From NCBI GenBank assembly GCA_020859985.1, contig JAJBVD010000034.1:124001-188000 (forward strand): a stretch of 64,000 bases of DNA, read 5' to 3'. Both the position numbers and the translations under genes were made by a program. This document shows positions 33,298 through 56,529 of the stretch, one piece after another (within the stretch, counting starts at the first letter, position 1; each line of letters starts with the position of its first letter). The DNA comes from Clostridiales bacterium. GTDB taxonomy: Bacteria; Bacillota; Clostridia; Lachnospirales; Lachnospiraceae. The notes below the pieces were generated by a model. It made no database searches, had not been told where the DNA came from, and worked only from the letters and a program-made list of their open reading frames with translations.

Positions 33298-33828
33298 TCA
33301 GCTTCTCTCCGTAATCTCCAGACCAGCGACCAGCACACTGGTACTCTCTTTACTAAAATCCAGATGCGCATTCTCTGACATTTTCAGCCACGCCAGGCGC
33401 TTATGGCGGTCAATGCGCACAATCCGGTTGTCATATCCCATCAGAGGTCCTTCCGTCACATGCGCAACTCCATCGCGGATCACACCGCGCGACATGCAGA
33501 TGTGGTGCTGCGCGCCAAAAAGATCCGCCAGGAACTGTGACACGTCTTCAGGCATGGCAATAAGAGGTACCTGCTTTTCCATCAACTCGCCAGCCAGTTC
33601 CTGCTCACACTCCAAAAACAGGAATTGGGGAAACAGAATTGCCGTCACCGAATGCCAGGCTCCCAGATAATGCCGCATTCTCTCGATCGTATATTGAAAC
33701 GTTTCAATATTCTCCATATACGGCTGTGCGGACAGAAAAGAAGCATCCAGTCCCGGAATACCGGTTGCGGATGCTTCATTACCGTTCACCTGATCTTTTC
33801 CCTGCGGATAATACAATGCATATAGCAT
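33298..33828 (-). CDS. NusG-like transcription antiterminator (LoaP-like)
   Basis: A 176-residue NusG paralogue: an NGN domain with the core ILFPQFLFLECEQELAG and a C-terminal KOW domain (EGPLMGYDNRIVRIDRHKRL). The MLYALYYPQG start replaces the usual WYV/W-V beginning of NusG. Specialised NusG paralogues such as LoaP drive polymerase through terminators in long polysaccharide and natural-product operons. Here the gene lies 2 kb past the 3' end of such an operon rather than at its start. GGGAGG with 8-base spacing supports 33828. The C-terminal 45 codons are duplicated at 29813. Confidence 0.75.
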   Translation of the reverse strand: MLYALYYPQGKDQVNGNEASATGIPGLDASFLSAQPYMENIETFQYTIERMRHYLGAWHSVTAILFPQFLFLECEQELAGELMEKQVPLIAMPEDVSQFLADLFGAQHHICMSRGVIRDGVAHVTEGPLMGYDNRIVRIDRHKRLAWLKMSENAHLDFSKESTSVLVAGLEITERS

Positions 33829-33945
33829 TTTTGTTTCCTCCCAAATATTTGATTTCAAATTCGCTGCCCGAAGAAAGGAAAATCCTACAATAAACAACAT
33901 CCCCGGGTTCGAGGGTGTTATTTGTATTCATCAAAAATGGGGGCT

Positions 33946-43939: not shown

Positions 43940-45004
43940 TTAAGGCACAAGGAAATCAATTTTTGTATGTATGTTTAAGCACTTTCCAACAGAATGTAAT
44001 CTATCAACCGCACTCTGGATTTGCTGACTTCTTTTTTTGAAATAATCAGTATCACAATTAACATATTTAAATAAGAAATATCCATTTATTTCTTGGTCTT
44101 CCAGCATAGATGAAATACTTATAAAGGCTCCAGAATGAATAGTTAGAAGTCTTAAATCCGTTTTAGCAAGATTCATTTGAATGACTTCCCATGGAATATA
44201 AGAGTTTTTAATTACTGAAATACCTTTTTCCTCATAAACAGTTCTGGAATCTCTAGGATGCATTTTGACAATAAAATTTTCGGTACCTAATTTTTCAGCC
44301 AGTTTTAATATAAGTTCTGTTTCACCCATAGGATTTCCATCTATATCTGAAGATGATGCAAAATAAATATATTTCTGATCAGGTTTTTCTTTTTTATAAT
44401 CAAATATAAAATTTAGAATTTCATTGAGTTGACTATTGTTATTTGATGATATAGAAGGAATTTTAATAAAATTCCATTCCTTATGGCTTACTTTAATTTC
44501 AGGAATAGTACAATAGTAATTATTTACCGATAATGCTAGATCCTCACCACCTGTAAATTTTCTTAATTTTCTTACTAGCTTAATTCTATTGCCCATCTCT
44601 AAATCTGTTTCATAGGATAAAATTCCTTCTTCATATCGTGACCAGACAACGTCGTGATGTATTCTTCTATAGTAATCATCTATTGCATATAATCTAATTT
44701 CTAAATTATAATAAATGATTTCATCATATAATTCTATCTTCGGCTTTCTTTCTAATCTAAATCCGTATGCGATAATATCGGAAATGTTTTTAATTGCAGT
44801 CTGATTAAAATTATGATTCTTCGTAACTTGGTATTCAACATTAACAAATAAATCACATTTTCTTAATCTATTAGCCACCTTATCAGCATACTGAGAACTG
44901 TCTGATATCCATACATCTACATCATCACATCTGAATAACGTAAGTTTCATTTGAATAGCTAAGATCAGTTGATAATATGTATTGCAAATAATAAGTTTTT
45001 TCAT
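43940..45004 (-). CDS. GT52-like glycosyltransferase
   Basis: A 354-residue enzyme resembling family GT52, whose members use CMP-activated sugars (alpha-2,3-sialyltransferases) or other donors. Seen: KKLIICNTYYQLILAIQMKL at the N-terminus and the donor-binding KMHPRDSR near residue 270, as in GT52 and related GT-B CMP-sugar enzymes. In this operon it is the natural user of the CMP-sugar made by the aldolase module. The start at 45004 has GAGGT at 6-base spacing; an earlier in-frame start is unsupported. Confidence 0.75.
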   Translation of the reverse strand: MKKLIICNTYYQLILAIQMKLTLFRCDDVDVWISDSSQYADKVANRLRKCDLFVNVEYQVTKNHNFNQTAIKNISDIIAYGFRLERKPKIELYDEIIYYNLEIRLYAIDDYYRRIHHDVVWSRYEEGILSYETDLEMGNRIKLVRKLRKFTGGEDLALSVNNYYCTIPEIKVSHKEWNFIKIPSISSNNNSQLNEILNFIFDYKKEKPDQKYIYFASSSDIDGNPMGETELILKLAEKLGTENFIVKMHPRDSRTVYEEKGISVIKNSYIPWEVIQMNLAKTDLRLLTIHSGAFISISSMLEDQEINGYFLFKYVNCDTDYFKKRSQQIQSAVDRLHSVGKCLNIHTKIDFLVP

Positions 45005-45477
45005 TGTTATACCTCGTATCTTTGCTTTATTCCGTTTTTTCTTGCTGATTATTTTATTTCCATGTAATAATAAAACACATGAACACAAGGCTTATATATT
45101 TTATATTTTCGATCATATCTGCGAGAACTCGTATTATTCTTCACCTTTTTATCAATTCCAGATCCAGAATTAGGTGCTCGGTGAAATGTCAGTTTTTCTC
45201 AGTGCTTTTGGCCTTACCCCGGCAGGATTTTCGGCTATATACTGTCTGCCTACAAGGCTGAGCATCTATATATATAGCTCAGCAGAGGAAATCAGCAATG
45301 CTGATTTCTCAGTTTACACTACCGAAACCCCATAAGCCCTGTAACAACACGGCCTAAGGCCACTTCCCTACCTCCTTTTCACGGAGAAGCCAAAATTATA
45401 GTTGTTTTAATGCTATAGCACTGAAATATATTATTATTAGCTATCCCCTATTTATTTCACTTATTACTGACTTGATA
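45005..45477. other. 470-base gap inside the operon with hairpins
   Basis: It holds GCTGAGC/GCTCAGC around an AT run (about 45259-45285) and GAAATCAGCA/TGCTGATTTC (about 45290-45310), back to back. No gene is supported. It could contain an internal terminator or a processed leader, or it may be the scar of a deleted gene. Confidence 0.5.
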
Positions 45478-46443
45478 TCATACGTTTCTTTTCCCAAACA
45501 TTCTGTAAATCCTCAAATAATTTACTTTTCCAAAGTACGTTAGCGCGGCTGCCATTCTATTCTTTTTTCTTACATTTGAATTTTTTACTATCTGAGTTCT
45601 ATGCTCTTTTATCCAATTCCAAAGCATGTCAGAAATGTCAGAGTCACTCTCTTCTACAACCTCTAACACCTGTGAATAACAGCTAAATTTTCTGGAGTAT
45701 ACTGATGATACGATTTCAGGACATTTTTTTTCAACAAAATCCTCAATTCCATCAATTGCTTCAAGAAGATCGGCGTAACTCCTCGAGAAGATATCCGAAT
45801 GACTAATACTTCCTGGGTGATGCATATAATAATATAATTCTCTCTGCCCATAGGCTATTATTTCTGCCTCATAAAGCACCTTATAAATTGTCATGAGATC
45901 TTCATGATACTTACCAATTGGGAACTGTAACAATTCTGCAAACTTCATACTGTATAATTTCCCACTCGCACTATTTGTAAATTCAATCTGATAAAGCATT
46001 TTTTCTATACTTTGAACATTAGAATAAACAAACTCCTCTTTTTTTTCGTCTTCTGATTCAGGGACGTCAATGCAGTCTTTTAATCTGCAAATACTTATGT
46101 CTGCCTTGTATTTTTTTATCAATCCATAAAGGTATTCCACGTATTCTTTATGAATCACATCATCACTATCCACATATGTTATATACGCGCCTTTAGCTTC
46201 ATTGGTTCCCACATTACGTGCATCAGATAAACCACCATTTTCCTTATGAATAACCTTTATTCTAGAATCTTTTCTTGCCCATTTATCGCACATAGCTGGG
46301 CAATTATCTTTTGAACCATCGTCAACAAGAATAATCTCAATATTGTGATAGCTTTGATCAATTATGCTTTTTACACACACATCTAAATAATTTTCAACAC
46401 CATACACTGGTACAATAATACTCACTAATTCTTTAGCTTTCAT
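45478..46443 (-). CDS. Family 2 glycosyltransferase
   Basis: A 321-residue GT-A enzyme. Seen: VSIIVPVYGVENYLDVCVKS, IEIILVDDGSKDNCPAMCD, KENGGLSDARNVG, and the DxD at YVDSDDVIHKEYVE. It adds one sugar to the lipid-linked repeat unit; donor and linkage are not predictable. The stop of the GT8 gene lies 6 bases upstream, so they are coupled. The C-terminal third is AT-rich and poorly conserved. Confidence 0.92.
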   Translation of the reverse strand: MKAKELVSIIVPVYGVENYLDVCVKSIIDQSYHNIEIILVDDGSKDNCPAMCDKWARKDSRIKVIHKENGGLSDARNVGTNEAKGAYITYVDSDDVIHKEYVEYLYGLIKKYKADISICRLKDCIDVPESEDEKKEEFVYSNVQSIEKMLYQIEFTNSASGKLYSMKFAELLQFPIGKYHEDLMTIYKVLYEAEIIAYGQRELYYYMHHPGSISHSDIFSRSYADLLEAIDGIEDFVEKKCPEIVSSVYSRKFSCYSQVLEVVEESDSDISDMLWNWIKEHRTQIVKNSNVRKKNRMAAALTYFGKVNYLRIYRMFGKRNV

Positions 46444-46449
46444 TTCTTG

Positions 46450-47436
46450 TTACTTTGCCTTCCTTGCTATAACCCATGGTTTAATTTCAGAATATATAAA
46501 TCCTAAAACTCTATACGACAATTTTTGGGGTAAAATTTGTATCATACCAATTATCTTTGATTCTCTCGAAGTAAATTTCATTACACCCAGCTTTCTATTC
46601 TTCCAAGGGCTCAAATCAAAATACTTCTTCCACTCTCCAGCAAAAGGGTGGTCGGTATTGCTAAACCAAGGCCTTACTACTTTCATGCTTGTCGTATAGT
46701 GAATGATTACTGGATTTTCTAATGCTTTCCTAATCTCTGCTTCGGTATAATAATTCGTTGGATTTTTCAGGGTCTGAATCTCCTGATATGAATAAGCTGC
46801 AACAATTGTCATTACATCAAATTTTGGATTAAGATAGTCAATCTTGTCATGGAACATACCATTCAACAGATCCTGATCGGCGTAATTGATTAGTCTCTCG
46901 TATTTCTCCATATACTTTTGGATAGCATCACTTACGTTAATTTTTCGCAGTTCTTTCAAATCAATTAAAAGAACTCCCGCATTTATATACGCATTCTGAC
47001 CGTCTAAACCAATATTCTTTTTATATAAGCTCCCAATAAAATCCTTAATGCCGTAGAATATATGATTTCCATCAAACCTTTTATTATCTAATTCCTTGAT
47101 ACTTCCCAGAACAATCGTGTCACAGTCCATGTAAAGAACCCTATCCATGTCCTCCGGCAGAAGTTGTCCAGAATACAGGCGGGTAAAAGCACTCACGGGC
47201 CATCGTGCACTTACCAGAGACTGCGGTACATTCAGCTTTGGTACGTCGATGATAATCACTTCTCGGTTATATTTTTCTCCAATATCCCTCAACTTTGATT
47301 TGCATTCATCAGTAATATTTTCTCCAAGAAGATATACTTTCAATTCTTCTATTTCCTTGTTGTTTTCAAACAGGGAAATTGTGGAAATTCCCATCAGCCA
47401 CACATAATTATTATCACATGTATAAAGTACATTCAT
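46450..47436 (-). CDS. Family 8 glycosyltransferase
   Basis: A 328-residue retaining GT-A enzyme of the LgtC/GspA type. Seen: NVLYTCDNNYVWLMGISTIS, the metal-binding RVLYMDCDTIVLGS, and the C-terminal acceptor-site pattern INYADQDLLNGMF and IIHYTTSMKVVRPW. It probably transfers alpha-galactose or alpha-glucose. It is 14 bases after the rfbC stop. Confidence 0.92.
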   Translation of the reverse strand: MNVLYTCDNNYVWLMGISTISLFENNKEIEELKVYLLGENITDECKSKLRDIGEKYNREVIIIDVPKLNVPQSLVSARWPVSAFTRLYSGQLLPEDMDRVLYMDCDTIVLGSIKELDNKRFDGNHIFYGIKDFIGSLYKKNIGLDGQNAYINAGVLLIDLKELRKINVSDAIQKYMEKYERLINYADQDLLNGMFHDKIDYLNPKFDVMTIVAAYSYQEIQTLKNPTNYYTEAEIRKALENPVIIHYTTSMKVVRPWFSNTDHPFAGEWKKYFDLSPWKNRKLGVMKFTSRESKIIGMIQILPQKLSYRVLGFIYSEIKPWVIARKAK

Positions 47437-47450
47437 CTCTATTAATCTCC

Positions 47451-47996
47451 TTAAAGAAATGGTGGATAACGACTATCTTTCTCTGCGAGTATTGGTGCGC
47501 CTTCCATTTCTGGCCATTGAATTCCAATAGTAGGATCATTCCACATTACACCAGTAACGTGGTCTTCCGGATGATAAAAGTCTGTTGCCATAAAGCAAAT
47601 ATCTGCATAGTTGGTTAACGTTAAGAATCCATGAGCAACACCTGCAGGTAGATATAACTGCTTTTTGTTTTCGTCAGTCAACTTGATACCTGTCCACCCC
47701 CCATAAGTTGGGCTGTTCTTTCTCAAATCAACTGCGACATCAAATATAGCGCCAAATAAACAACGAACTAATTTCCCTTGTGGATGTTCAAGCTGAATAT
47801 CCACACCACGTATTACATTCTTCCTACTTCGGCTCTGATTCTCTTGGACAAAATCCACGTCGATTCCAATTTCTCTAAACATTTTCTTGTTATATAATAG
47901 AACTGTGTCTGTTTGTAAATTCAAAAATATCGCAGGCTCAATAGCAAATACTCCTTCAATATTTGTTGGAATTGCCTTAATCCTATTATCCATCAT
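47451..47996 (-). CDS. rfbC: dTDP-4-dehydrorhamnose 3,5-epimerase family protein
   Basis: A 181-residue RmlC-type cupin. Seen: NIEGVFAIEPAIF, NVIRGVDIQLEHPQGKLVR (the RGLHxQ motif appears as RGVDIQ, so the catalytic His is replaced by Asp), FDVAVDLRKNSPTYGGW, and LYLPAGVAHGFLTL. The change at the RGLHxQ histidine could alter or abolish epimerase activity. The start at 47996 has AAGGA; earlier in-frame starts lie over the rmlB stump. No rmlA or rmlD is present in the window. Confidence 0.82.
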   Translation of the reverse strand: MMDNRIKAIPTNIEGVFAIEPAIFLNLQTDTVLLYNKKMFREIGIDVDFVQENQSRSRKNVIRGVDIQLEHPQGKLVRCLFGAIFDVAVDLRKNSPTYGGWTGIKLTDENKKQLYLPAGVAHGFLTLTNYADICFMATDFYHPEDHVTGVMWNDPTIGIQWPEMEGAPILAEKDSRYPPFL

Positions 47997-48107
47997 ATAT
48001 TTCCTTATATTTTTCATAATAATGGTAATTCTGATATATACCGAAAGAGATGGTTTGCCACCACTCCTTTTTATCAAGATACCACTGAATAGTCTTCTTA
48101 ATTCTCC
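47986..48107 (-). pseudogene. dTDP-glucose 4,6-dehydratase (rmlB) 3' stump
   Basis: In the frame overlapping the rfbC start, the strand encodes RIKKTIQWYLDKKEWWQTIS and then a Tyr/His-rich end and stop. That is the C-terminal 40 residues of RmlB (family pattern GIxxTIxWYLxNxxWW). The remaining 300 codons are missing; the sequence upstream is unrelated. Confidence 0.75.
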
Positions 48108-48392
48108 AAATCTGTACCTAACATATACCATATATCCTGCAGGTATTTTTAAACCAGCATTTCATTATATTTTTCATTAATGAATACAATTCATTATTTC
48201 ACGGCTTAGCCCATTTCAATGCATACTTTTTGCTTCACAAAACTCGAATAAACCTAAATAATCTTGCATTTTTCTACGCCTATCAAATCAAAAACTATCT
48301 TTGAGAGGCCAAGATATTTTGCAAAACAAATAATCTTAGAGCCTACTCCATATCAATCCCTTTCCTGTAACAACTACTATTCATAGCCTCTT
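48108..48392. other. Junction between the AT-rich and GC-richer operon parts
   Basis: About 285 bases without a gene. To the left (35.8-48.1 kb) genes are AT-rich and strain-specific in type; to the right (48.4-53 kb) the heptose genes have clearly higher GC. The rmlB stump lies at this edge. Confidence 0.5.
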
Positions 48393-48965
48393 TTATTTCA
48401 TGCTTTCCCCCAGCACCCTCATCATCATGTGATCAAAAATCATATGAACATCTTCCGCCACCTGCATATCATCAATGTTGACATGCATCTTATAATCAGC
48501 CAACTCCATCAATCGCCCTCCGGAATATCCGGTGATTCCGATCACCTGCGTTCCTGTCTCTTTTGCGTATTCGACAGCCCGAACCACATTTTCCGAATTT
48601 CCACTGCCGGAAATCCCTATAACCAGATCTTCCGGTTTTAGCTTCCCGCGAAGCTGATATACAAAAATATCGTCATAACTCATATCATTCGCAATGGCCA
48701 TGACGATGGGGGTGTTGTCGCAAAGGCATTCGAACAGAAACTTTTTCCCTTCCAGTTCTTCCGTTGCTCCTTTTGCAAAGTCGCAGACCATATGGCTGGC
48801 CGTTGCTGCACTGCCGCCATTTCCCATTGTATAGATTGTCCCGCCCCGGTTGCGTGCTTCCAAAATCGCATTGATTGCCTGATTCAGTTCTTCCAGATCC
48901 AGATTCTGTATCGTCCGAATCTCGGTCTCAAAATAGGTTTTCATTGCCGGTTTGAAATCGACCAT
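48393..48965 (-). CDS. gmhA: D-sedoheptulose-7-phosphate isomerase
   Basis: A 190-residue SIS-domain enzyme: first step of the heptose route, sedoheptulose-7-P to D-glycero-D-manno-heptose-7-P. Seen: YTMGNGGSAATASHMVCDFAK, ISGSGNSENVVRAVEYAKE and AEDVHMIFDHMMMRVL, with the conserved metal-site histidine and glutamate-like residues. Length is normal. It is in the operon with hddA, gmhB and hddC. Confidence 0.93.
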   Translation of the reverse strand: MVDFKPAMKTYFETEIRTIQNLDLEELNQAINAILEARNRGGTIYTMGNGGSAATASHMVCDFAKGATEELEGKKFLFECLCDNTPIVMAIANDMSYDDIFVYQLRGKLKPEDLVIGISGSGNSENVVRAVEYAKETGTQVIGITGYSGGRLMELADYKMHVNIDDMQVAEDVHMIFDHMMMRVLGESMK

Positions 48966-49031
48966 AGTCCCTAAATCTCCTTTATTTCAATAGCCTTTGC
49001 CTCTGCTATTGTTTTTCAGTCTTTATTCCTT

Positions 49032-50003
49032 TTAATATCTCCTGCTCTTCTCCCAATTCCAGGCATCAGCAAGGATCGTTTCAATCTCACTGTTTACCGG
49101 ATTCCAGCCCAGCAGCTGTTTCGCTTTCTCATTTGAAGCTACCAGCACAGCCGGATCGCCCTCTCTCCGGCCCGCGATTTCATAGGGAACTTTCTCGCCG
49201 GTTACCTTCTGAAGTGCCTGAATCATTTCGAGGACGGTAAAGCCCTGACTGCTTCCGAGGTTAAAATCCTCCGATTTATCATTCTCCATGATATATTTCA
49301 TACCAAGATAGTGAGCTTCCGCAAGATCAAGGACATGGATAAAGTCCCGAATGCAGCTTCCGTCTCTAGTATCGTAATCATTTCCAAAGACCTTGAACGG
49401 TTTCCCGTCTCTGGCCGCTTTGATCATAACCGGGATCAAGTGTGTCTCCGGATTGTGTGCCTCGCCAATCATCCCATCTCTGGAATCTCCTGCTGCACAA
49501 AAATAGCGGAAAGCGCAGTATCGCAATCCGTATGCCCGTTCGTAATCCTGAAGCAGCTTTTCTCCAATGAGCTTCGTCGTCCCATACGGATTGATCGGTT
49601 CCTGCGGATGTGCTTCATCCATCGGCACATACTGCGGATTACCAAAAGTAGCTGCTGAAGAGGAAAATACAAAATATTTGATTCCATGCGCCACGCAGGC
49701 ATCCAATAACGTTTGCACATTTGTCACATTGTTGTGATAATAACGGGCCGGACGGATAACGGAATCCGGCACGGAAGCGAATGCTGCAAAGTGAATAACC
49801 GCATCAAAGCTCTCTTCCGTCATGAGCCGGTCGAGGAGTTCCCTGTCGCCAAAGCTTCCCCGAACAAACCTTCCTGCCACCACAGCTTCTTCGTGTCCGT
49901 CGCTCAAGTCATCCAGCACCACTGTACTGATGCCTTTTCCCGATAAATAACGGTTCGTATGACTGCCAATATATCCGGCACCGCCTGTGATTAAGACTTT
50001 CAT
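49032..50003 (-). CDS. galE: UDP-glucose 4-epimerase
   Basis: A 323-residue short-chain dehydrogenase/epimerase: MKVLITGGAGYIGSHTNRYL (NAD-binding GxxGxxG), FSSSAATFGNPQYVP, catalytic-type NPYGTTKLIGEKLL (YxxxK), and CAFRYFCAAG. It supplies UDP-galactose for the glycan. The start at 50003 is the conserved one; a start at 50030 only adds nine unconserved residues. Confidence 0.92.
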   Translation of the reverse strand: MKVLITGGAGYIGSHTNRYLSGKGISTVVLDDLSDGHEEAVVAGRFVRGSFGDRELLDRLMTEESFDAVIHFAAFASVPDSVIRPARYYHNNVTNVQTLLDACVAHGIKYFVFSSSAATFGNPQYVPMDEAHPQEPINPYGTTKLIGEKLLQDYERAYGLRYCAFRYFCAAGDSRDGMIGEAHNPETHLIPVMIKAARDGKPFKVFGNDYDTRDGSCIRDFIHVLDLAEAHYLGMKYIMENDKSEDFNLGSSQGFTVLEMIQALQKVTGEKVPYEIAGRREGDPAVLVASNEKAKQLLGWNPVNSEIETILADAWNWEKSRRY

Positions 50004-50042
50004 CGTCTGTCGTCTCCCGTTTCTATACAAAAATCATTTTGA

Positions 50043-50612
50043 TTAAATGCTGTTTGTCGGAGAAATACCTTCTTTTGGTAAAATACCTTTTCCGAGAATT
50101 TTCTCTGCTGCTTCCTCTAAGCAAGTCGTCCGAATTGTTCTGACTCCGTAATTCTGTCCGGCCTGTACATCGCTCTCACTGTCTCCCACCATCCATGATG
50201 TTTCCTTATCAATTCGGAAATCGCGTTCTGCCCGCAAAAATAATCCAATGTCAGGCTTGCGGCAGTGGCATTCCCCCGCATTATGCGGGCAGACATAGAT
50301 CCCATCGATGTGCGCTCCGATTTTATTCAGGTTTTTGCACATCTGTCGATGTATCTTTTCTACCGCTTCCACTGTCATCATTCCGCGGGCGATTCCCCTC
50401 TGATTCGTCACGATCAGAACCAGATACCCGGCTTTGTTAAGTTTATGAATTGCTTCAGGAACACCCGGCAGGAATTCAAATTCTTCCCACTTCGTTATGT
50501 ACTGATGCGGCGGAGCCTGCCTGTTGATCAGTCCGTCTCGGTCAAGAAAGACTGCTTTATTCCCATAACGGTTTTCGCTGTTCCGCAAAGCAGTATGCCC
50601 TTCCCTATCCAT
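50043..50612 (-). CDS. gmhB: D-glycero-D-manno-heptose 1,7-bisphosphate phosphatase
   Basis: A 189-residue HAD phosphatase. Seen: KAVFLDRDGLINR (nucleophile Asp), VIVTNQ-type LIVTNQRGIARGMM, the zinc-binding loop CPHNAGECHCRKP (Cys-x-His...Cys-x-Cys), and MVGDSESDVQAG. It removes the 7-phosphate before nucleotide activation. Overlaps hddA by 8 bases. Confidence 0.93.
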   Translation of the reverse strand: MDREGHTALRNSENRYGNKAVFLDRDGLINRQAPPHQYITKWEEFEFLPGVPEAIHKLNKAGYLVLIVTNQRGIARGMMTVEAVEKIHRQMCKNLNKIGAHIDGIYVCPHNAGECHCRKPDIGLFLRAERDFRIDKETSWMVGDSESDVQAGQNYGVRTIRTTCLEEAAEKILGKGILPKEGISPTNSI

Positions 50613-51573
50613 TGAAAATCACCCTTGTCCCAGACAATGAGACATGGAATTCCACACGTCTTAAACCAATCGCTTTTTCCAATGCTTCCTGATTTTGTTC
50701 ATCACAATAAAACAACAAAAAGCCGCCGCCGCCGGCTCCCAGAAGCTTTCCCCCTTTCGCTCCGGCGTCCATTGCTGCCTGATAGTATTGACTGATTTGG
50801 TCATTGGTGATTGTTGAAGCCAGAGATTGTTTGTATATCCAGCCCTGGTGAAGCGTACTTGCAAAAGACTCGCCAAATCCTTCGCTGATCAAGTCGTGAT
50901 GCATTTTTTCAGCCTGATGCTTCATCTCATCCAGAACCTCCAGCCGCGACGCTGTATTCTTTTTTTGCTCCTGAAGTACCGAGTCCGCACTGCGTGTCAT
51001 CCCGGTGTAGAAAAGAACAAGCTTCTGCCGCATTTTCCTCGCATTTGTGTCGTCAAGAAAAATGCGTTCCTGTAAAACACTTTCATCCTTGTGGAACTCA
51101 AAATAATTCATTCCACCGTAGGCGGCAGCAAACTGATCCTGTTTTCCAATGGGATGCTTCAGGACATTGATTTCAATCTCGCAGGCCTTTTCGGCCAGTT
51201 CATGAGCAGACACCCGTTCTCCCACATGGCTGTACAAAGCATTTAAAAGTCCAACCGTAAAAGTACTCGACGACCCCAGACCGGTCCCGGATGGAATGTC
51301 AGCAATGGAGGTGATTTCGATTCCACCATGGATTCCCACCATCTGAAGGCATTCCCGCACCAATTCATGATTCAGCTCCTGTACCTCGTCCACGATCTCC
51401 GTATTCGAATAGCTGACGCGTATCTTGTTATCAAATTTCGGATTCACCGTTATGTAAATATACTTGTTGATGCCGGCACTCACGACAGCACCGCCATTTA
51501 CCCGATAATAGTCCGGCAGATCCGTGCCACCGCCCGCGAAGCTAATCCGTAAGGGTGTCTTTGTAATAATCAT
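50605..51573 (-). CDS. hddA: D-glycero-alpha-D-manno-heptose-7-phosphate 1-kinase
   Basis: A 322-residue GHMP kinase. Seen: TPLRISFAGGGTDLPDYY, the ATP loop PSGTGLGSSSTFTVGLLNAL, and the C-terminal GKLLGAGGGGFLLFYC. It phosphorylates heptose-7-P at C1 on the GDP route. The start at 51573 overlaps the end of hddC by 32 bases. Confidence 0.93.
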   Translation of the reverse strand: MIITKTPLRISFAGGGTDLPDYYRVNGGAVVSAGINKYIYITVNPKFDNKIRVSYSNTEIVDEVQELNHELVRECLQMVGIHGGIEITSIADIPSGTGLGSSSTFTVGLLNALYSHVGERVSAHELAEKACEIEINVLKHPIGKQDQFAAAYGGMNYFEFHKDESVLQERIFLDDTNARKMRQKLVLFYTGMTRSADSVLQEQKKNTASRLEVLDEMKHQAEKMHHDLISEGFGESFASTLHQGWIYKQSLASTITNDQISQYYQAAMDAGAKGGKLLGAGGGGFLLFYCDEQNQEALEKAIGLRRVEFHVSLSGTRVIFNG

Positions 51574-52267
51574 AGTTCCATTCTCTCTTTGCTTTCTCGT
51601 AATTATCCATGGTTCCGATATCAATCAGATAATCTTCGGTTTCCCAGCCATACATCTTCCCGACCAGCTTTGGCAATACATCTTTTCCGAAATCACTAAA
51701 TTCTTCTTGGGGAAAATACTCGAAGATCTGTTGATTTGCCACATAAATACCTGCGTTTGCGAGATTGCATTTCGGTTGCTGCGGTTTTTCAACAAAATCG
51801 ATAATCCGGTCTTGTTCATCAAGTTCAGCAATTCCGCACTGTTCCGGATGATTCGTTCGAAATAAAGCCATCGTCAGGATTCCCTGCTTCTGCCGATGAA
51901 ACTCTATCAGCTTATGAAGATTCACATTGCAGAGGTTGTCTGCATAACAGATCAGAAAATCATCCTCCTTTGATGTAAATGCCTGATTAGCGCGAACTGT
52001 ACCGCCGCTGCCAAGCAATTCTTCCTCATAAAACTCTACAAAAGAAATCCCCTGATTTTCTTTGTTAAATGATTCGATATAAGTATGAACCTGATCCCGC
52101 AGATAATGAGTATTTACCAAAACCTCCGTGACTCCTGCTTCTTTCAGAAGCTTTGCCCACCAGTCGAGCATCGGGTGCCCGCCGACTTCTACCAGACATT
52201 TCGGTATCGTATCCGTAATTGGACGCAGACGACTTCCAAATCCCGCTGCCAAAAGATATGCTTTCAT
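51542..52267 (-). CDS. hddC: D-glycero-alpha-D-manno-heptose 1-phosphate guanylyltransferase
   Basis: A 241-residue sugar nucleotidyltransferase: YLLAAGFGSRLRPITDTIPK (GXGXRL..P..PK), EELLGSGGTVRANQAF, YADNLCNVNL (metal site) and FVEKPQQPKCNLANAGIYV. It makes GDP-heptose. It overlaps the sugar-transferase stop by ATGA, so the route is the first thing translated after the initiating enzyme. Confidence 0.9.
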   Translation of the reverse strand: MKAYLLAAGFGSRLRPITDTIPKCLVEVGGHPMLDWWAKLLKEAGVTEVLVNTHYLRDQVHTYIESFNKENQGISFVEFYEEELLGSGGTVRANQAFTSKEDDFLICYADNLCNVNLHKLIEFHRQKQGILTMALFRTNHPEQCGIAELDEQDRIIDFVEKPQQPKCNLANAGIYVANQQIFEYFPQEEFSDFGKDVLPKLVGKMYGWETEDYLIDIGTMDNYEKAKREWNYDYYKDTLTD

Positions 52268-53007
52268 CTTGCACCCTTTCTTTTCAAAACCAGTCCTATC
52301 GTTTTAAACAACAGCTGACAGTCATACACAAATCCCCTTTTATCTATGTAAGAGAGCTGCATCTGCTTCGCTTCTTCTGATAAAAATGGCACTTCTCCTC
52401 GGCCTTCCACCTGCCACACACCAGTGATTCCGCTCCGAACACTCAGGAGTTTTTCCCTGTCTGCACCATAGGCCTGTGCTTCCCGTTCAATGACCGGACG
52501 TGGACCGATAATGCTCATATCGCCCTTTAAAACAGAAATCAACTGCGGTAATTCGTCAATACTGGTAGCGCGAATGAATTTTCCCACCTTGGTAATACGG
52601 GGATCATCTTCCAGCTTTACACCCGATAAGTATTGTTCCCTTTGTTCTTCTGTAAACATGTCCAGCATGTTATCCGCGTTTACTTTCATACTGCGAAATT
52701 TATACATGATATATTCGCGGTCGTTGCGTCCTGCGCAATATCTCCTATGCAGAATCGGCCCGCCATCTTCCCTTTTAATCGCAACTGCCACCACTAAAAA
52801 AACAGGGGAGCACAGTATCAGACCAACCAGGCTTCCCACAACATCCACTGTTCTCTTTACGGCCAGATAAATGAGGCTCGGTTTCCGTGCTTTCTCCCCC
52901 GCAAATTCCATCGTTCCCACAGCTTCCGCTGCAGAAGCTGCCTCTGCTCTCGCTTTCATAATGTTTTCATCCTGCCAGTGCTCTTCTTTTTCATTCATAG
53001 ATTTCAA
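52264..53007 (-). CDS. Initiating sugar-phosphate transferase (WbaP/WcaJ type)
   Basis: A 247-residue bacterial sugar transferase that loads the first sugar phosphate on undecaprenyl phosphate. Seen: one membrane segment (AVKRTVDVVGSLVGLILCSP), the catalytic YKFRSMKVNAD, DDPRITKVGKFIRATSIDEL, GPRPVIEREA and SVRSGITGVWQVEGR. It is the first gene of the operon. The frame starts at TTG 53007 near AGAGGGA; ATG 52998 is the alternative. The first 40 residues are Ala/Glu-rich and unlike the family. Confidence 0.92.
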   Translation of the reverse strand: MKSMNEKEEHWQDENIMKARAEAASAAEAVGTMEFAGEKARKPSLIYLAVKRTVDVVGSLVGLILCSPVFLVVAVAIKREDGGPILHRRYCAGRNDREYIMYKFRSMKVNADNMLDMFTEEQREQYLSGVKLEDDPRITKVGKFIRATSIDELPQLISVLKGDMSIIGPRPVIEREAQAYGADREKLLSVRSGITGVWQVEGRGEVPFLSEEAKQMQLSYIDKRGFVYDCQLLFKTIGLVLKRKGAR

Positions 53008-53460
53008 TTTCTGTATCCCTCTTTATTTTTTCCCACTATATGGCGTTGTTCTTTTCTTGTTTTCAAAGCAGTTCCGTCTCGTCTTTTCTATCCACTTTCG
53101 CATTTTTCATACCTATTCATGCAAATACCCCCCCGCACCACATTTTGGGCTTGGAGAGGTCTTTCTTTCATTTATCCATTCGATTGTTTTTGCTGTTTGC
53201 TGCCGCCGCGGTGCAAACGCATCTCTTCTGCTCATTAGTCAGTTGCCGTTGACAGCACTTCCAACGTATAGCTTCGCCATCCCGCCCATGTTATGTCCTG
53301 CATCCGTTTGATGTAGGAAAGGAGGCTGCGTCTTATGCGTTTACACGATTGTATCTGGCGCGGCTCCCTTTGTTTATGCGCGGAAGGCATGCATTTTATG
53401 ACATCCGGAATTGTCCACGGCGGCGAAGCGTCACGCTTTCAATAGCCGGATTTTGTAAAG
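53008..53460 (-). other. Leader region of the polysaccharide operon
   Basis: About 450 bases between the operon's first gene and the putative inversion site. I see no minus-strand match to a -10/-35 pair here. Open frames on the other strand are unsupported. An antiterminator target could lie here. Confidence 0.45.
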
Positions 53461-53488
53461 TGGAACATAATGTAAACTTTATGTTCCA
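53461..53488. other. Putative recombinase crossover site, left
   Basis: A 28-base palindrome: TGGAACATAA, an 8-base centre, TTATGTTCCA. The length and layout match crossover sites of small serine recombinases. Its reverse complement matches the right site at 24 of 28 positions. Confidence 0.65.
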
Positions 53489-53496
53489 AAAAAGTG

Positions 53497-53525
53497 TTGC
53501 TTTTTCGGATGCGGTAGCGTATAAT
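53497..53525 (+). promoter_or_regulatory. Sigma-A promoter inside the putative invertible segment
   Basis: TTGCTT, exactly 17 bases, TATAAT. It points right, away from the polysaccharide operon. Inversion of the segment would turn it to face the operon. Confidence 0.75.
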
Positions 53526-53627
53526 GTGCAACTGAAATGATTATGTTTATTTGGCCTTCCAAATTGAACGAATTATTTGTTTTATAAGGAATATTTTCCG
53601 AATATTATTTAGAAATTAAAGAAAATA

Positions 53628-53677
53628 AGGTGCCATATGTCTTAATTATCAGTTATATGGCACCTGCTGATTTTTTT
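53628..53677 (+). terminator. Terminator inside the putative invertible segment
   Basis: An 11-pair perfect stem AGGTGCCATAT/ATATGGCACCT, then gctga and seven T residues. It lies 100 bases after the promoter on the same strand, so any transcript, in either orientation, meets it. On the other strand the tract cttattttc follows. Confidence 0.85.
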
Positions 53678-53752
53678 GCGGATTTTATTGGACGAGTTTG
53701 GCGGTTGCCATGCAGCGCAACTTATGTATTGGCAAACCGTTAATTTTTTAGC

Positions 53753-53780
53753 TGGAACATAAAGTTTACTTTATCGCCCA
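53753..53780. other. Putative recombinase crossover site, right
   Basis: TGGAACATAA, centre agtttact, then the half-decayed arm TTATCGCCCA. Inverted relative to the left site. It overlaps the last codons and the stop of the recombinase gene. Confidence 0.65.
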
Positions 53781-54401
53781 TTTCCTGTTTCCTTTTTCCG
53801 CGACCCATCTGCGGAAGGTGCTGTGTGCGATACCCAGCTGTTCCGCAGCTCGTCTGGCGCTGATTTCTCCGGCGCGGTACTTTTCCATCAGAATGAAGAA
53901 TTCCTGCGAGCGTTCCTTCGGCGGCGCGCCAAAGCGGACGCCTCTCGCTCTGGCTGCGGCAATGCCTTCTTTTTGGCGTTCGTGTGTCTTCTCGCGTTCG
54001 AGCTGGGCGAAGCAACACAGTACTTCGAGGAAGATGGCGCTGATCAGTTTCGCCGTTACACCTTCGATGCCACGTGTGGTATTCAGAAGCGGCATATCCA
54101 GCACAACGATAGCCACGTCCTTTGTCCGTGTGATCAGGCGCCATTCGTCGATGATTTCATCGTAATTACGGCCGAGGCGGTCAACGCTTTTGATGACCAG
54201 AGTGTCGCCGGCTTTCAGCTTCGCGATCATTTCTTTGTAAGCGGGCCGGTTGAAATCCTTGCCGGAGAAACCCCAGTCGGAGAAGATGTTTTCTTTCGGC
54301 ACGCCGTATTCGCGCATGGCGATCAGCTGCCTGTCCAGGTTCTGTGTCTGTGAGCTCACCCGTACATATCCGTATACCTTTTCCATTTCTTTCATTTCCA
54401 T
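53766..54401 (-). CDS. Small serine recombinase (resolvase/invertase family)
   Basis: A 211-residue enzyme: the catalytic start VYGYVRVSSQTQNLDRQ with nucleophile Ser, SDWGFSGKDFNRPAYKEM, the DRLGRNYDEI motif, FAQLEREKTHERQKEGIAAA, and a C-terminal Hin-like helix-turn-helix (ISARRAAEQLGIAHSTFRRW). AAGGAGG precedes the ATG. Its 3' end runs into one of two inverted 28-base sites, so it is likely an invertase acting on the adjacent promoter segment. Resolution of a lost transposon is the alternative. Confidence 0.92.
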   Translation of the reverse strand: MEMKEMEKVYGYVRVSSQTQNLDRQLIAMREYGVPKENIFSDWGFSGKDFNRPAYKEMIAKLKAGDTLVIKSVDRLGRNYDEIIDEWRLITRTKDVAIVVLDMPLLNTTRGIEGVTAKLISAIFLEVLCCFAQLEREKTHERQKEGIAAARARGVRFGAPPKERSQEFFILMEKYRAGEISARRAAEQLGIAHSTFRRWVAEKGNRKWAIK

Positions 54402-54454
54402 GATGTGTCCTCCTTGTGATTGTTTTTTGAATCATTGTAACTATTTGAAAAAGA

Positions 54455-54545
54455 ATGCGCTTAAGCGCATCCCCGCGGAGCGTTTTACAATATAAGAAAT
54501 GGAATTTCTTATATTGTAAAACAACGCTTCGCATTTGCTGCGAAG
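54455..54545. repeat. Cluster of palindromes upstream of the recombinase gene
   Basis: ATGCGCTTAAGCGCAT (54455-54470), a perfect inverted repeat with 19-base arms and a GGA centre (54482-54522, arms GTTTTACAATATAAGAAAT), and CTTCGCA/TGCGAAG (54527-54545). It fills the promoter region of the recombinase. Confidence 0.85.
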
Positions 54546-54577
54546 TACGTGTAAAAAGTATGTTTAAAAGGAAAAAA

Positions 54578-54608
54578 ATAAGAGCCATTTACGGCTCTTA
54601 CTTTTTCT
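54578..54608. terminator. Bidirectional terminator
   Basis: AAGAGCC/GGCTCTT stem with a 6-base loop, T-rich on both sides (actttttctt on plus, atttttttcc on minus). It ends the RloAB-like operon on the minus strand. Confidence 0.8.
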
Positions 54609-54701
54609 TATTTTTCATTCGGGAAGTATTTTAAAGATATTTTAAACAGATTCGAAAATGCATCATAGCCTGAGGCTCGATTGCACTAAATGAACAATGC
54701 T

Positions 54702-55352
54702 TCACCAGTCTATCACCTCAAAAAATTCCTCAATATTACTCCCCCTGACCGAGAGACAATCAAAATCAACGATAGTTTCGGTGATCTCCACATCAAACGA
54801 TTCTCTTTTGATTATATATGTGTTTTTCACAAGCTTTCTGCCGCCGTCTAAACGTTGTAGCATCGTTTGATAGCCATTACTTCCATTATTCAGATAGTTG
54901 TAGATGTCTGTCTTTCCCTTTAATGCGGATACACTTTGGAAGCCCAACTGGTTTTTGATGAAGGATGCCGTGCCCTGCCCCTTATAGCTCGTTATATGCA
55001 GACAGGTAACATATTCAAAATCAGGGTTGTCCACTATCAGAAAATGAGGCGCAGCTTTTTTAGCATTTTGCATTTGGCAATATTCTAACAGTTTTTCGAA
55101 TCCTTCTTTCTCACCCTTACCATTTTGGATTCTGTCAGCATCCACAATGATAAACTTGGCGATACAATTGGTCTGTGCTTTTGTACAGATCACGTCCAGA
55201 AAACTCTGATACCCTCCGCCTTTCATATTAATCAGTTGCAGGGATATTTCTACCCCCTGGTTCTTCCGCATCTGATCGATATAATGAAATTCCGTATCTC
55301 CTTCACAAAATACGACAAATTTCTTTTTAAGTTCCCGCTTTGGCCTACTCAT
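54702..55352 (-). CDS. RloB-like protein (AbiLii type)
   Basis: A 216-residue RloB-family protein with a Toprim-like nuclease core: KFVVFCEGDTEFHYIDQM at the start (conserved Glu), IIVDADRIQNGKG (acidic metal site), and LIVDNPDFEYVTCLH. RloB proteins pair with RloA-type ATPases in phage defence (AbiL and related systems). The start overlaps the ATPase stop by 8 bases. The C-terminal half is diverged. Confidence 0.8.
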   Translation of the reverse strand: MSRPKRELKKKFVVFCEGDTEFHYIDQMRKNQGVEISLQLINMKGGGYQSFLDVICTKAQTNCIAKFIIVDADRIQNGKGEKEGFEKLLEYCQMQNAKKAAPHFLIVDNPDFEYVTCLHITSYKGQGTASFIKNQLGFQSVSALKGKTDIYNYLNNGSNGYQTMLQRLDGGRKLVKNTYIIKRESFDVEITETIVDFDCLSVRGSNIEEFFEVIDW

Positions 55353-56520
55353 AAGCAGTACCTCCCAGAATTCCCTTCATGTAAAACTCATAGATTTTAG
55401 TATTCTCATAACGAACTTCCGGAAAATCAGCTAAAGAATATAGGTCTGAAACCAGAGTATCCCTATCCTTGGTAATAAAATATATCTGTTCCTTCATATA
55501 GGTTGCAAGGTTCAAATGCAATACATTGTGAGTAGAGAAAATGAACTGACCCTGATGGTGTTTCCCATTAATAAACGCGACAACACGATCGGACAAAATG
55601 GGATTTAATACCCGATCCATCTCGTCTGCAAATACCGTTCTGTTCTCATATACGACCCGAAAAATCTGCACAGCCCACTTGAAGAATTCACGTACTCCTG
55701 CGGAATCCATAGAAAGTTCACGCTTCATAATCTGCCCAGCTTGATTTCTGCGAATGATTACAGTTTTGCTGTACGGCTTCTCTTCATCTATCTGCACATC
55801 ACAGATGCTGTAATCCACCATGCGAAATATCTCTACATAGCGGGAATCTTTCATGATATCTAAATCCGTATTCCGTTTCAGAAGCGCATTTTGATCATTA
55901 CTGTTCGGAAGTTCTACTGACAGTGATTCATTCATCCACTCGGTCACTGCCAATGCGTTCTCATCACCGAGTATGGCTAATTTTGTTATAAAAAGGCCTA
56001 TTCCCATCTGCCTGATATCAACCAAATGCGGCAGATGGTTCTTTACTTCTGATGATATGTCATAGCCGCCAGCCTCATTTCTTTTAAAAGAAAACAGCTT
56101 CTTCCCGGTGCCTGAACGATCCTTTCGAAAATATAACTCTTCACAGACAATTCCGATGCTATCGATTTCAAGAATATATCGATATATTTTCGTACCATTC
56201 AGGAGCAATTCCAGTTCAAAGAATTGGGTAGAGTTCTCTTTATTATCCCTACTCGATGCATTTACATAAGGTGTAAAACTCCTGACCATGTCGTTATCTG
56301 AAAACAGTGATTTCAGATATCTGAGACTGGCCATGAAATTAGATTTGCCTCCAGCATTTTCGCCAACAATTACTGCAGTCTTCAGCGGGTTTATGCCCAA
56401 ATCATCTGCTACATAATTATCCGGATATCTTTTCTTTACTTTTCCTTTTGGAGCTTCCATAGAGAACTCATAGTTGCCCCAGAATGAACAGAAGTTATTA
56501 AATCGGTATCGAATCAGCAT
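55345..56520 (-). CDS. RloA-like AAA ATPase (AbiLi type)
   Basis: A 391-residue OLD/Rad50-like ATPase: Walker A VIVGENAGGKSNFMASLRYL, an SMC-like start YRFNNFCSFWGNYEFSMEAP, a helical lid, VVYENRTVFADEMDRVLNP (Walker B) and FIFSTHNVLHLN (H-loop). With the downstream RloB-like gene it forms a two-gene AbiL/RloAB-like defence operon that probably blocks phage by abortive infection. The start at 56520 has AAGGAG at 9-base spacing. Confidence 0.82.
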   Translation of the reverse strand: MLIRYRFNNFCSFWGNYEFSMEAPKGKVKKRYPDNYVADDLGINPLKTAVIVGENAGGKSNFMASLRYLKSLFSDNDMVRSFTPYVNASSRDNKENSTQFFELELLLNGTKIYRYILEIDSIGIVCEELYFRKDRSGTGKKLFSFKRNEAGGYDISSEVKNHLPHLVDIRQMGIGLFITKLAILGDENALAVTEWMNESLSVELPNSNDQNALLKRNTDLDIMKDSRYVEIFRMVDYSICDVQIDEEKPYSKTVIIRRNQAGQIMKRELSMDSAGVREFFKWAVQIFRVVYENRTVFADEMDRVLNPILSDRVVAFINGKHHQGQFIFSTHNVLHLNLATYMKEQIYFITKDRDTLVSDLYSLADFPEVRYENTKIYEFYMKGILGGTAYE

Positions 56521-56529
56521 CTTCAGCAT

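Follow-up and report, generated by a model that had tools for sequence, protein, structure and literature searches.

In the window, by which we mean the whole 64,000-nt stretch analysed here, a 264-bp segment with a putative promoter lies between two inverted recombination sites, beside a gene for a small serine recombinase and upstream of a polysaccharide operon with a conserved leader RNA. The best reading of this locus, to which we give a probability of roughly 0.7, is that of an invertible promoter combined with LoaP-type antitermination on the leader. The features of the locus, with coordinates in the window, are:

43940-52267, minus strand: further operon genes; those tested encode a sugar nucleotidyltransferase, a GHMP kinase, a HAD phosphatase, an epimerase, an isomerase and two glycosyltransferases
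52264-53007, minus strand: first operon gene, polyprenyl sugar-phosphate transferase (PF02397)
53127-53160, minus strand: terminator-like hairpin ACCTCTCC...GGGGGGGT and its tail TATTTGCA (4 T of 8), preceding the first gene
53266-53459, minus strand: conserved leader RNA, 119.2 bits to covariance model R1, which was built with this sequence
53417-53436, minus strand: covarying leader hairpin with the hexaloop CUUCGC, which contains UUCG
53461-53488, no strand: left recombination site, 28-nt palindrome, core GTAAAC on the plus strand
53489-53752, no strand: putative invertible segment, 264 bp between both 28-nt sites
53497-53525, plus strand: promoter TTGCTT-17-TATAAT, pointing away from the operon (read as OFF), at the same position in four members of the related family
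53628-53665, minus (recombinase-to-operon) strand: T_A, 38-nt hairpin followed by TATTTTCT, -17.5 kcal/mol; its plus-strand U-tract is displaced
53699-53750, plus (promoter) strand: T_B, hairpin 53699-53742 with tail ATTTTTTA, -17.0 kcal/mol
53753-53780, no strand: right recombination site, core GTTTAC on the plus strand, inverted relative to the left site and overlapping the recombinase stop codon
53766-54401, minus strand: small serine recombinase (PF00239, 211 aa), codirectional with the operon

The operon extent of 43940-52267 covers the genes listed, and further minus-strand genes may lie beyond 43940. The trait of UpxY-type systems, an antiterminator gene in first place in the operon, is absent in the window, where the first gene is the sugar transferase.

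The segment, its recombinase and related loci

The left and right sites match at 24 of 28 positions in inverted orientation, and their core dinucleotides (AA/TT) are opposed. A 22-nt site pattern, with up to three mismatches allowed, matched the window four times, always at these two sites, against an expectation of 0.01, and none of 100 shuffled windows had four matches. The 3.8-Mb, 89-contig assembly held one further match, a site with three mismatches on contig C9 that is part of a decayed related switch (locus L172). An earlier note made from the sequence had described two inverted 28-base palindromic sites around 264 bases, with a recombinase gene running into the right one; the sites are well beyond chance, and the stop codon of the recombinase reading frame does lie inside the right site. 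No DNA match to the 264-bp segment was found elsewhere in its own genome or in 46 other genomes of the genus, and a search of these 47 genomes with the segment region matched elsewhere only parts downstream of the operon-side site.

The recombinase scored 108.1 bits against PF00239 (cut-off 23.3). Its reading frame is uninterrupted, and alignment with resolvases showed that R14, S16, R52, R75 and R78 are present, which we take to have the catalytic roles of their counterparts in gamma-delta resolvase. A possible C-terminal helix-turn-helix scored 19.8 bits against PF05225 (cut-off 20.4), and the Tn3 and gamma-delta chains align as far as residue 199-200. Among solved structures, the recombinase is closest to Sin-type (entry name 'Tn552 DNA-invertase bin3'), Tn3 and gamma-delta resolvases, and its nearest named relatives come mostly from Clostridia MAGs and isolates. 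When 41 genomes were searched with the recombinase, the own genome contributed 12 matches; seven of these are small homologues, among them the enzyme of the window itself. The comparison with Hin/Mpi-type invertases drawn in the earlier note holds in that the enzyme is a small serine recombinase, but it missed the cut-off of the Mpi-family master invertase NF009949 (43.5 against 272 bits). We treat the Bacteroides system as an analogue because the recombinase falls below this NCBIfam cut-off.

Just upstream of the recombinase gene, an RloB-like protein and an AAA ATPase are encoded at 54702-56529 (minus strand), a pair resembling the AbiLii/AbiLi abortive-infection pair (41 and 187 bits). A perfect 19-bp inverted repeat with a 3-nt gap (54482-54522), a possible operator or terminator, lies between the recombinase and this pair.

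The hexamers of the promoter, TTGCTT at 53497-53502 and TATAAT at 53520-53525, lie on the plus strand with a 17-nt spacer, as the earlier note had placed them. The window promoter alone is not above chance (shuffle p 0.18), and it was missing from a consensus scan that demanded 4/6 in each hexamer; it stands in a segment enclosed by inverted sites, the arrangement by which invertons are recognised, and the same place is taken by TTGCTT-17-TATAAT in the related loci L032, L176 and L180 and by a near copy, with TTGCAA, in L172. The note had also seen no promoter for the first operon gene, and we found in 53.0-53.46 kb a single weak operon-directed promoter-like match (53376-53348, 9/12), which is not above chance, with three such matches in 52900-54800 against 3.0 expected. 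The promoter direction, the sole basis of the call, supports an OFF state of the window segment as assembled.

The nearest paralogue of the recombinase lies at L032, on contig C81 of the own genome, in the same layout of recombinase, site, 256 bp, site, leader and sugar transferase. The 256-bp segment of L032 aligns over its full length to the minus strand of L176 (G050, another species of the genus) at 83.6% identity, and both flanks align in plus orientation; in L180, from a third genome (G053), the segment has the orientation of L032 (plus). Comparing orientation in related genomes, a check suggested by the earlier note, yielded an inversion with fixed flanks between L032 and L176, a related locus and not the window's own segment. 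As judged from these alignments, the segment of the L032, L176 and L180 loci is inverted between genomes of one genus, and the related loci support inversion of the window segment. The promoter, T_A and the layout are common to the window and the family of L032, L172, L176 and L180; L172, on contig C9 of the own genome, looks decayed and carries recombinase fragments only. At the L032 sites the core, AT, is self-complementary, and as direct repeats the two sites agree at 27 of 28 positions, so that deletion would be possible at this locus.

The leader RNA and LoaP

The leader RNA adjoins the operon-side site and recurs within the genus, in 10 of 47 genomes by BLAST and in 16 of 47, with 64 matches, by R1. 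Among 196 genomes of the order, it was found in the own genome alone. R1 was trained on 15 sequences from eight of the 16 leader genomes, and the other eight were therefore found independently; the R1 searches of order and genus used stricter filters, with which weak matches were lost. No Rfam family matched the leader at the gathering score, neither in the window nor in the six leader loci compared. An Rfam GA-cis match in L032 (9545-9627, minus strand, 39.6 bits, gathering 34.7) lies outside the leader and on the strand opposite to the operon.

Compensatory changes point to a structured RNA. In an alignment of 41 matches (35 distinct, a subset of the 64) with an RNAalifold consensus fold, seven pairs were changed on both sides compared with 3.8 in shuffles, which do not keep relatedness, and 0 of 500 shuffles reached seven. 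Slid-structure controls gave one to four double-sided pair changes, and the lead of the fold over them is partly built in because the structure was derived from the same alignment. The consensus fold consists of the covarying hairpin, with 15 GC-to-AU changes at one pair, a second covarying helix and a near-invariant AUGGC-GAA-GCUAU hairpin; it replaced a first leader structure (A2). A hexaloop with UNCG was present in 26 of the 35 distinct leaders, and the closing positions around UNCG (C-C or C-U) differ from those of the classical loop, cUNCGg.

Between the leader and the first gene, the terminator-like hairpin of the window is part of a -21.8 fold over 65 nt and has a weak U-tract. L032, L172, L176, L177 and L180 have pre-gene hairpins with energies between -15.6 and -26.1 kcal/mol and tails containing 5 T of 8, and none was found in L173. 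An open reading frame of at least 100 aa follows the leader at 27 of the 28 leader loci examined. Pfam was applied to ten of these 27 genes, which gave seven polysaccharide-type proteins, two DEAD helicases and one protein without a family; by eye, one helicase family stands behind 13 of the 27 leaders (L207, L209, L211-L214, L216, L221, L224, L226-L228, L230). Upstream of leaders without a recognised switch (L178, L181, L182, L185, L187), a motif resembling CCCTTAATnnnGTACTAAGGGA recurs by eye, possibly a promoter or regulator site.

The own genome (G000) encodes one LoaP, on contig C38 (NF033641, 176.7 bits, cut-off 125), besides the housekeeping NusG. LoaP over the cut-off accompanied the leader in 14 of the 16 leader genomes (the G013 copy has an in-frame stop), and the other two, G008 and G048, carry interrupted or split copies with lower scores. 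Two of the 31 leader-negative genomes (G020 and G043) have LoaP over the cut-off, and 29 of the 47 have neither leader nor LoaP. The co-occurrence (Fisher p 4e-8 strictly, 1e-10 when the two broken copies are counted) was counted without regard to phylogeny and may reflect one clade. The two elements are also linked: in G061 the order is leader, loaP and a sugar-transferase-type gene, and G049 has a weak leader match of 35 bits, which overlaps with the beginning of the loaP match. According to the accessible part of PMC12691694, Bacillus LoaP needs and binds a leader hairpin of the UNCG type and acts at the leader terminator. Judging by co-occurrence and linkage, LoaP most likely acts on the present leader.

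Inversion could also be the whole of the switch, with the leader being a riboswitch or another cis-regulator unrelated to LoaP, a reading that we consider unlikely. The inversion evidence stands by itself, and this reading would suit the LoaP of G020 and G043 without a detected leader, the lack of leader matches in the 195 other genomes of the order, 12 of which have LoaP over the cut-off, and the helicase-like genes behind many leaders. Against it stand the presence of loaP, complete or interrupted, in all 16 leader genomes and the leader preceding loaP in G061 and, as a weak match, in G049, and we keep antitermination by LoaP in the preferred reading.

LoaP-like genes were also seen near recombinase genes. 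In Collinsella loci L140 and L129, such a gene follows the recombinase within ~300 bp; with 80.4 bits, the L140 protein stays below the cut-off, and the L129 site pair, at 18, misses the threshold of 19. Six recombinase-like proteins (L034, L035, L036, L037, L055 and L056, from own contigs C9, C6, C64 and C68 and from G013) lack conserved resolvase positions: the R52- and R78-equivalents are lost in all six, and R75 is lost in three. Downstream of each of the six, within 190 bp, lies a LoaP/NusG-like gene. These pairs may be derived, DNA-addressed antitermination pairs. The window itself encodes a LoaP-like protein at 33298-33900 (minus strand; 60 bits to NF033641, cut-off 125), and no recombinase-like reading frame was recognised among its listed neighbours.

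Site pairs, promoters and hairpins across recombinase loci

We compared 115 recombinase hits from the window, from relatives found in genome and database searches, and from three of 16 further loci (L172, L176 and L180), selected for the switches that they carry; at L172 no full recombinase hit was obtained. Six hits with less than 300 bp downstream were dropped, which left 109, including the six degenerate proteins. An inverted pair of 28-nt sites with a score of at least 19 was found just downstream of the recombinase at 34 of 109 loci, compared with 0 of 872 in a Markov null and 1 of 106 upstream stretches, and direct pairs sharing a non-self-complementary core numbered 1 of 109. The other 75 loci had no site pair at score 19. 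With a score of 17, the numbers were 43 of 109 loci, 1.6% of the null, 4 of 106 upstream stretches and 3 of 109 direct pairs. The site score of 19, the promoter weights and the terminator rules were set by ourselves, partly after viewing examples. A first site scan, with strict GTNNAC cores and a start near the stop codon, was replaced, as it missed L048 and L054. At L054 the recombinase reading frame crosses the proximal site into the invertible segment, and inversion would thus change the C-terminus of the recombinase.

The cores of the 34 loci were GT (12), AC (8), AG (6), AT (5) and AA (3), and 29 of the 34 are not self-complementary. Core-to-core distances were phased at 10.5 bp in the 28 segments shorter than 180 bp (R=0.83, p ~5e-9; scan peak 10.5), in the 21 distinct distance/core types (p ~8e-7) and in all 34 (p ~1e-9), p values that are optimistic because the loci are related to each other. 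Such phasing fits looping of the two sites onto each other. Opposite orientation in related loci, recurrent inverted sites with opposed core dinucleotides and helical phasing all speak for an invertible promoter driven by the serine recombinase, as the earlier note had proposed.

Behind the switches at 29 of the 34 loci, 30 target proteins were picked by eye, not in every case the product of the first gene, and compared with Pfam; the window (tested separately), L038, L048, L120 and L180 were outside this set. Twelve of the 30 were of polysaccharide, wall, pilus, flagellin or secreted-surface types: Wzz, flagellin, sugar transferase, MBOAT, peptidoglycan-binding, teichoic-type transferase, SpaA/Cna_B, SpaA (just below the cut-off), beta-helix, dockerin, pilin-type/GLUG and UDP-glucose dehydrogenase. 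Nine belonged to other families (DEAD helicase, radical SAM, penicillinase-repressor-type, acyltransferase, AMP-binding, DUF5780, WG repeat and two zinc-ribbon proteins), and nine had no Pfam family. At L081, a helicase-like protein stands behind the switch with a sugar-transferase-like gene next to it.

Promoters were scored with a simple weight scheme. At a shuffle p of 0.05 or less, 17 of the 34 segments had a promoter, facing the target (ON) in four and the recombinase (OFF) in 13; the p values were 0.18 for the window, 0.08 for L032 and 0.10 for L180. A consensus scan for promoters and terminators by itself was set aside, with promoters not above chance.

Within the window segment, the U-tracts of T_A and T_B are on opposite strands. 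The U-tract of T_A is displaced by ~6 nt on the promoter strand and follows the stem immediately on the recombinase-to-operon strand (OFF orientation). The immediate U-tract is on the latter strand in the window (-17.5 kcal/mol), L032 (-21.2), L180 (-17.6) and L172 (-19.9), all of them OFF, and on the other strand in the ON locus L176 (-20.8); the promoter strand of the L032 hairpin still scores -17.9, with a poorer tail. T_B ends the promoter strand of the segment, at -17.0 kcal/mol in the window and at -8.5 to -10.6 in the L032 family. The T_A sequence had 0 matches in one viral-contig scan. The position of its U-tract fits T_A as an insulator of the OFF state, and T_B fits an obstacle to ON transcripts.

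The earlier note had counted one strong terminator, expected the transcript of the inverted promoter to meet it, and suggested an added antitermination step. Terminator-like hairpins are present, but there are two, plus a weaker third on the promoter strand (-10.4 kcal/mol); T_B would lie in the path of that transcript, whereas T_A is better placed as an insulator; and the added step is plausible on the evidence of the downstream leader RNA and LoaP, not of T_A.

Terminator polarity as a general rule was discarded. Only eight of 22 direction-assigned loci had any terminator at the threshold used, on the strand opposite to the promoter only (two), on the promoter strand only (two) or on both (four), and five of the 22 (window, L032, L039, L043 and L180) had a promoter p above 0.05.

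The polarity of T_A in the window and the L032 family would also agree with an invertible terminator, in which orientation mainly gates read-through from the recombinase promoter via T_A and the internal promoter plays a minor part; the recombinase gene and the operon do run in the same direction. The conservation of the promoter hexamers where the spacers vary between the window and the family, together with the 14 direction-assigned loci without a segment terminator, makes it improbable. We also regard as decidedly improbable that the locus is no longer active and locked OFF, with the sites being an operator or a relic. The decay of L172 and the 13 OFF calls among 17 segments fit such a loss, and it is opposed by the uninterrupted reading frame of the window recombinase, in which the residues aligned with the active site of resolvases are retained. 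A resolution (deletion) system or mobile-element resolvase, as the nearest solved structures might suggest, is scarcely credible given the opposed cores in the window and the predominance of inverted over direct pairs (34 against 1 of 109).

Proposed mechanism and known systems

In the preferred reading, of inversion combined with antitermination, the serine recombinase would pair both 28-nt sites and flip the 264-bp segment, as the related locus inverted between genomes suggests. As assembled (OFF), the promoter points at the recombinase, and T_A would block read-through from the recombinase to the operon. After inversion, the promoter would face the operon, and T_A would show its poorer side. 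The ON transcript would pass T_B and enter the structured leader, which ends in the terminator-like hairpin preceding the first gene. A LoaP-family antiterminator, whose gene lies elsewhere in the genome, would recognise the leader and allow the polymerase to continue through the long operon, so that the surface polysaccharide would need both the ON orientation and LoaP. LoaP loading at the leader would not account for the passage of T_B, which the polymerase reaches before the leader.

A broader proposal, for which we see about even odds, is that the leader is a previously undescribed structured RNA recognised by LoaP, marking a LoaP regulon of the genus with surface polysaccharide operons among its members. 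For some of these operons, inversion would set the start and LoaP the completion of transcription, a two-key switch that would have arisen, probably in Clostridia, separately from Bacteroides UpxY.

In Bacteroides, an invertible promoter upstream of a polysaccharide operon is combined with UpxY, a NusG paralogue that prevents premature termination in the untranslated region (accessible part of PMC12118408). The present locus resembles these systems in its invertible promoter before a surface polysaccharide operon and in a NusG-paralogue antiterminator, here presumably LoaP. It differs in its lineage (probably Clostridia), in a recombinase that adjoins its own segment and falls below the Mpi-family cut-off, in a LoaP gene on another contig, in the polar terminator T_A inside the segment and in the shared leader RNA. 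The dfn and mln operons of Bacillus velezensis, as described in the part of PMC12691694 at hand, have a leader RNA hairpin, an intrinsic terminator and a long operon under LoaP control. Leader hairpin, terminator (here a terminator-like hairpin), long operon and LoaP family NF033641 are alike, whereas the present operon is for polysaccharide instead of polyketide, has a different leader and an upstream inversion switch, and would depend on LoaP by inference.

In Eggerthella lenta, megabase inversions were proposed to reposition capsule clusters relative to loaP (preprint PMC13174815, accessible part), so that there too DNA inversion and LoaP are proposed to act jointly on capsule clusters. Those are megabase cluster inversions, and no recombinase was found next to them, whereas the present segment is a 264-bp promoter segment beside its recombinase. 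Gut invertons found with PhaseFinder are short inverted-repeat elements, often with promoters and near surface genes, including in Firmicutes_A/Clostridia-like genomes (PMC11892184, accessible part); phased sites beside serine recombinases and LoaP leaders are features of the present loci that are absent from the accessible text.

The Hin and Gin DNA invertases are likewise small serine recombinases with palindromic sites in inverted orientation. Most segments of the present loci are much shorter than that of hin. RecV of C. difficile is a tyrosine recombinase, and we know of no LoaP or leader RNA of the present type for the flagellar switch of that species. That switch is alike in having an inverting upstream element whose effect involves control after initiation, with Rho named in the title of PMC7446863.

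Nowhere in the literature covered, which was partial, did we find a LoaP leader described behind an invertible promoter; the one paper on LoaP together with phase variation was the E. lenta preprint (PMC13174815). A search for NusG with resolvase, serine recombinase or antiterminator gave nothing relevant. Capsule invertons with NusG paralogues in Bacteroides and short invertons in Clostridia-like genomes are already known; a LoaP leader behind an invertible promoter is apparently unreported in the accessible sources.

The encounters of gut bacteria with phages and hosts are governed by phase-variable capsules, of which the best worked-out cases known to us are in Bacteroides. If the preferred reading is true, the same two-layer logic of inversion and NusG-paralogue antitermination would operate in another lineage, probably Clostridia, with different parts, and there would be a defined candidate RNA element for LoaP outside Bacillus. 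Two questions would become testable: which feature of polysaccharide operons LoaP recognises, and how leaky read-through is avoided at an inverting promoter, for which the polar T_A may offer a means.
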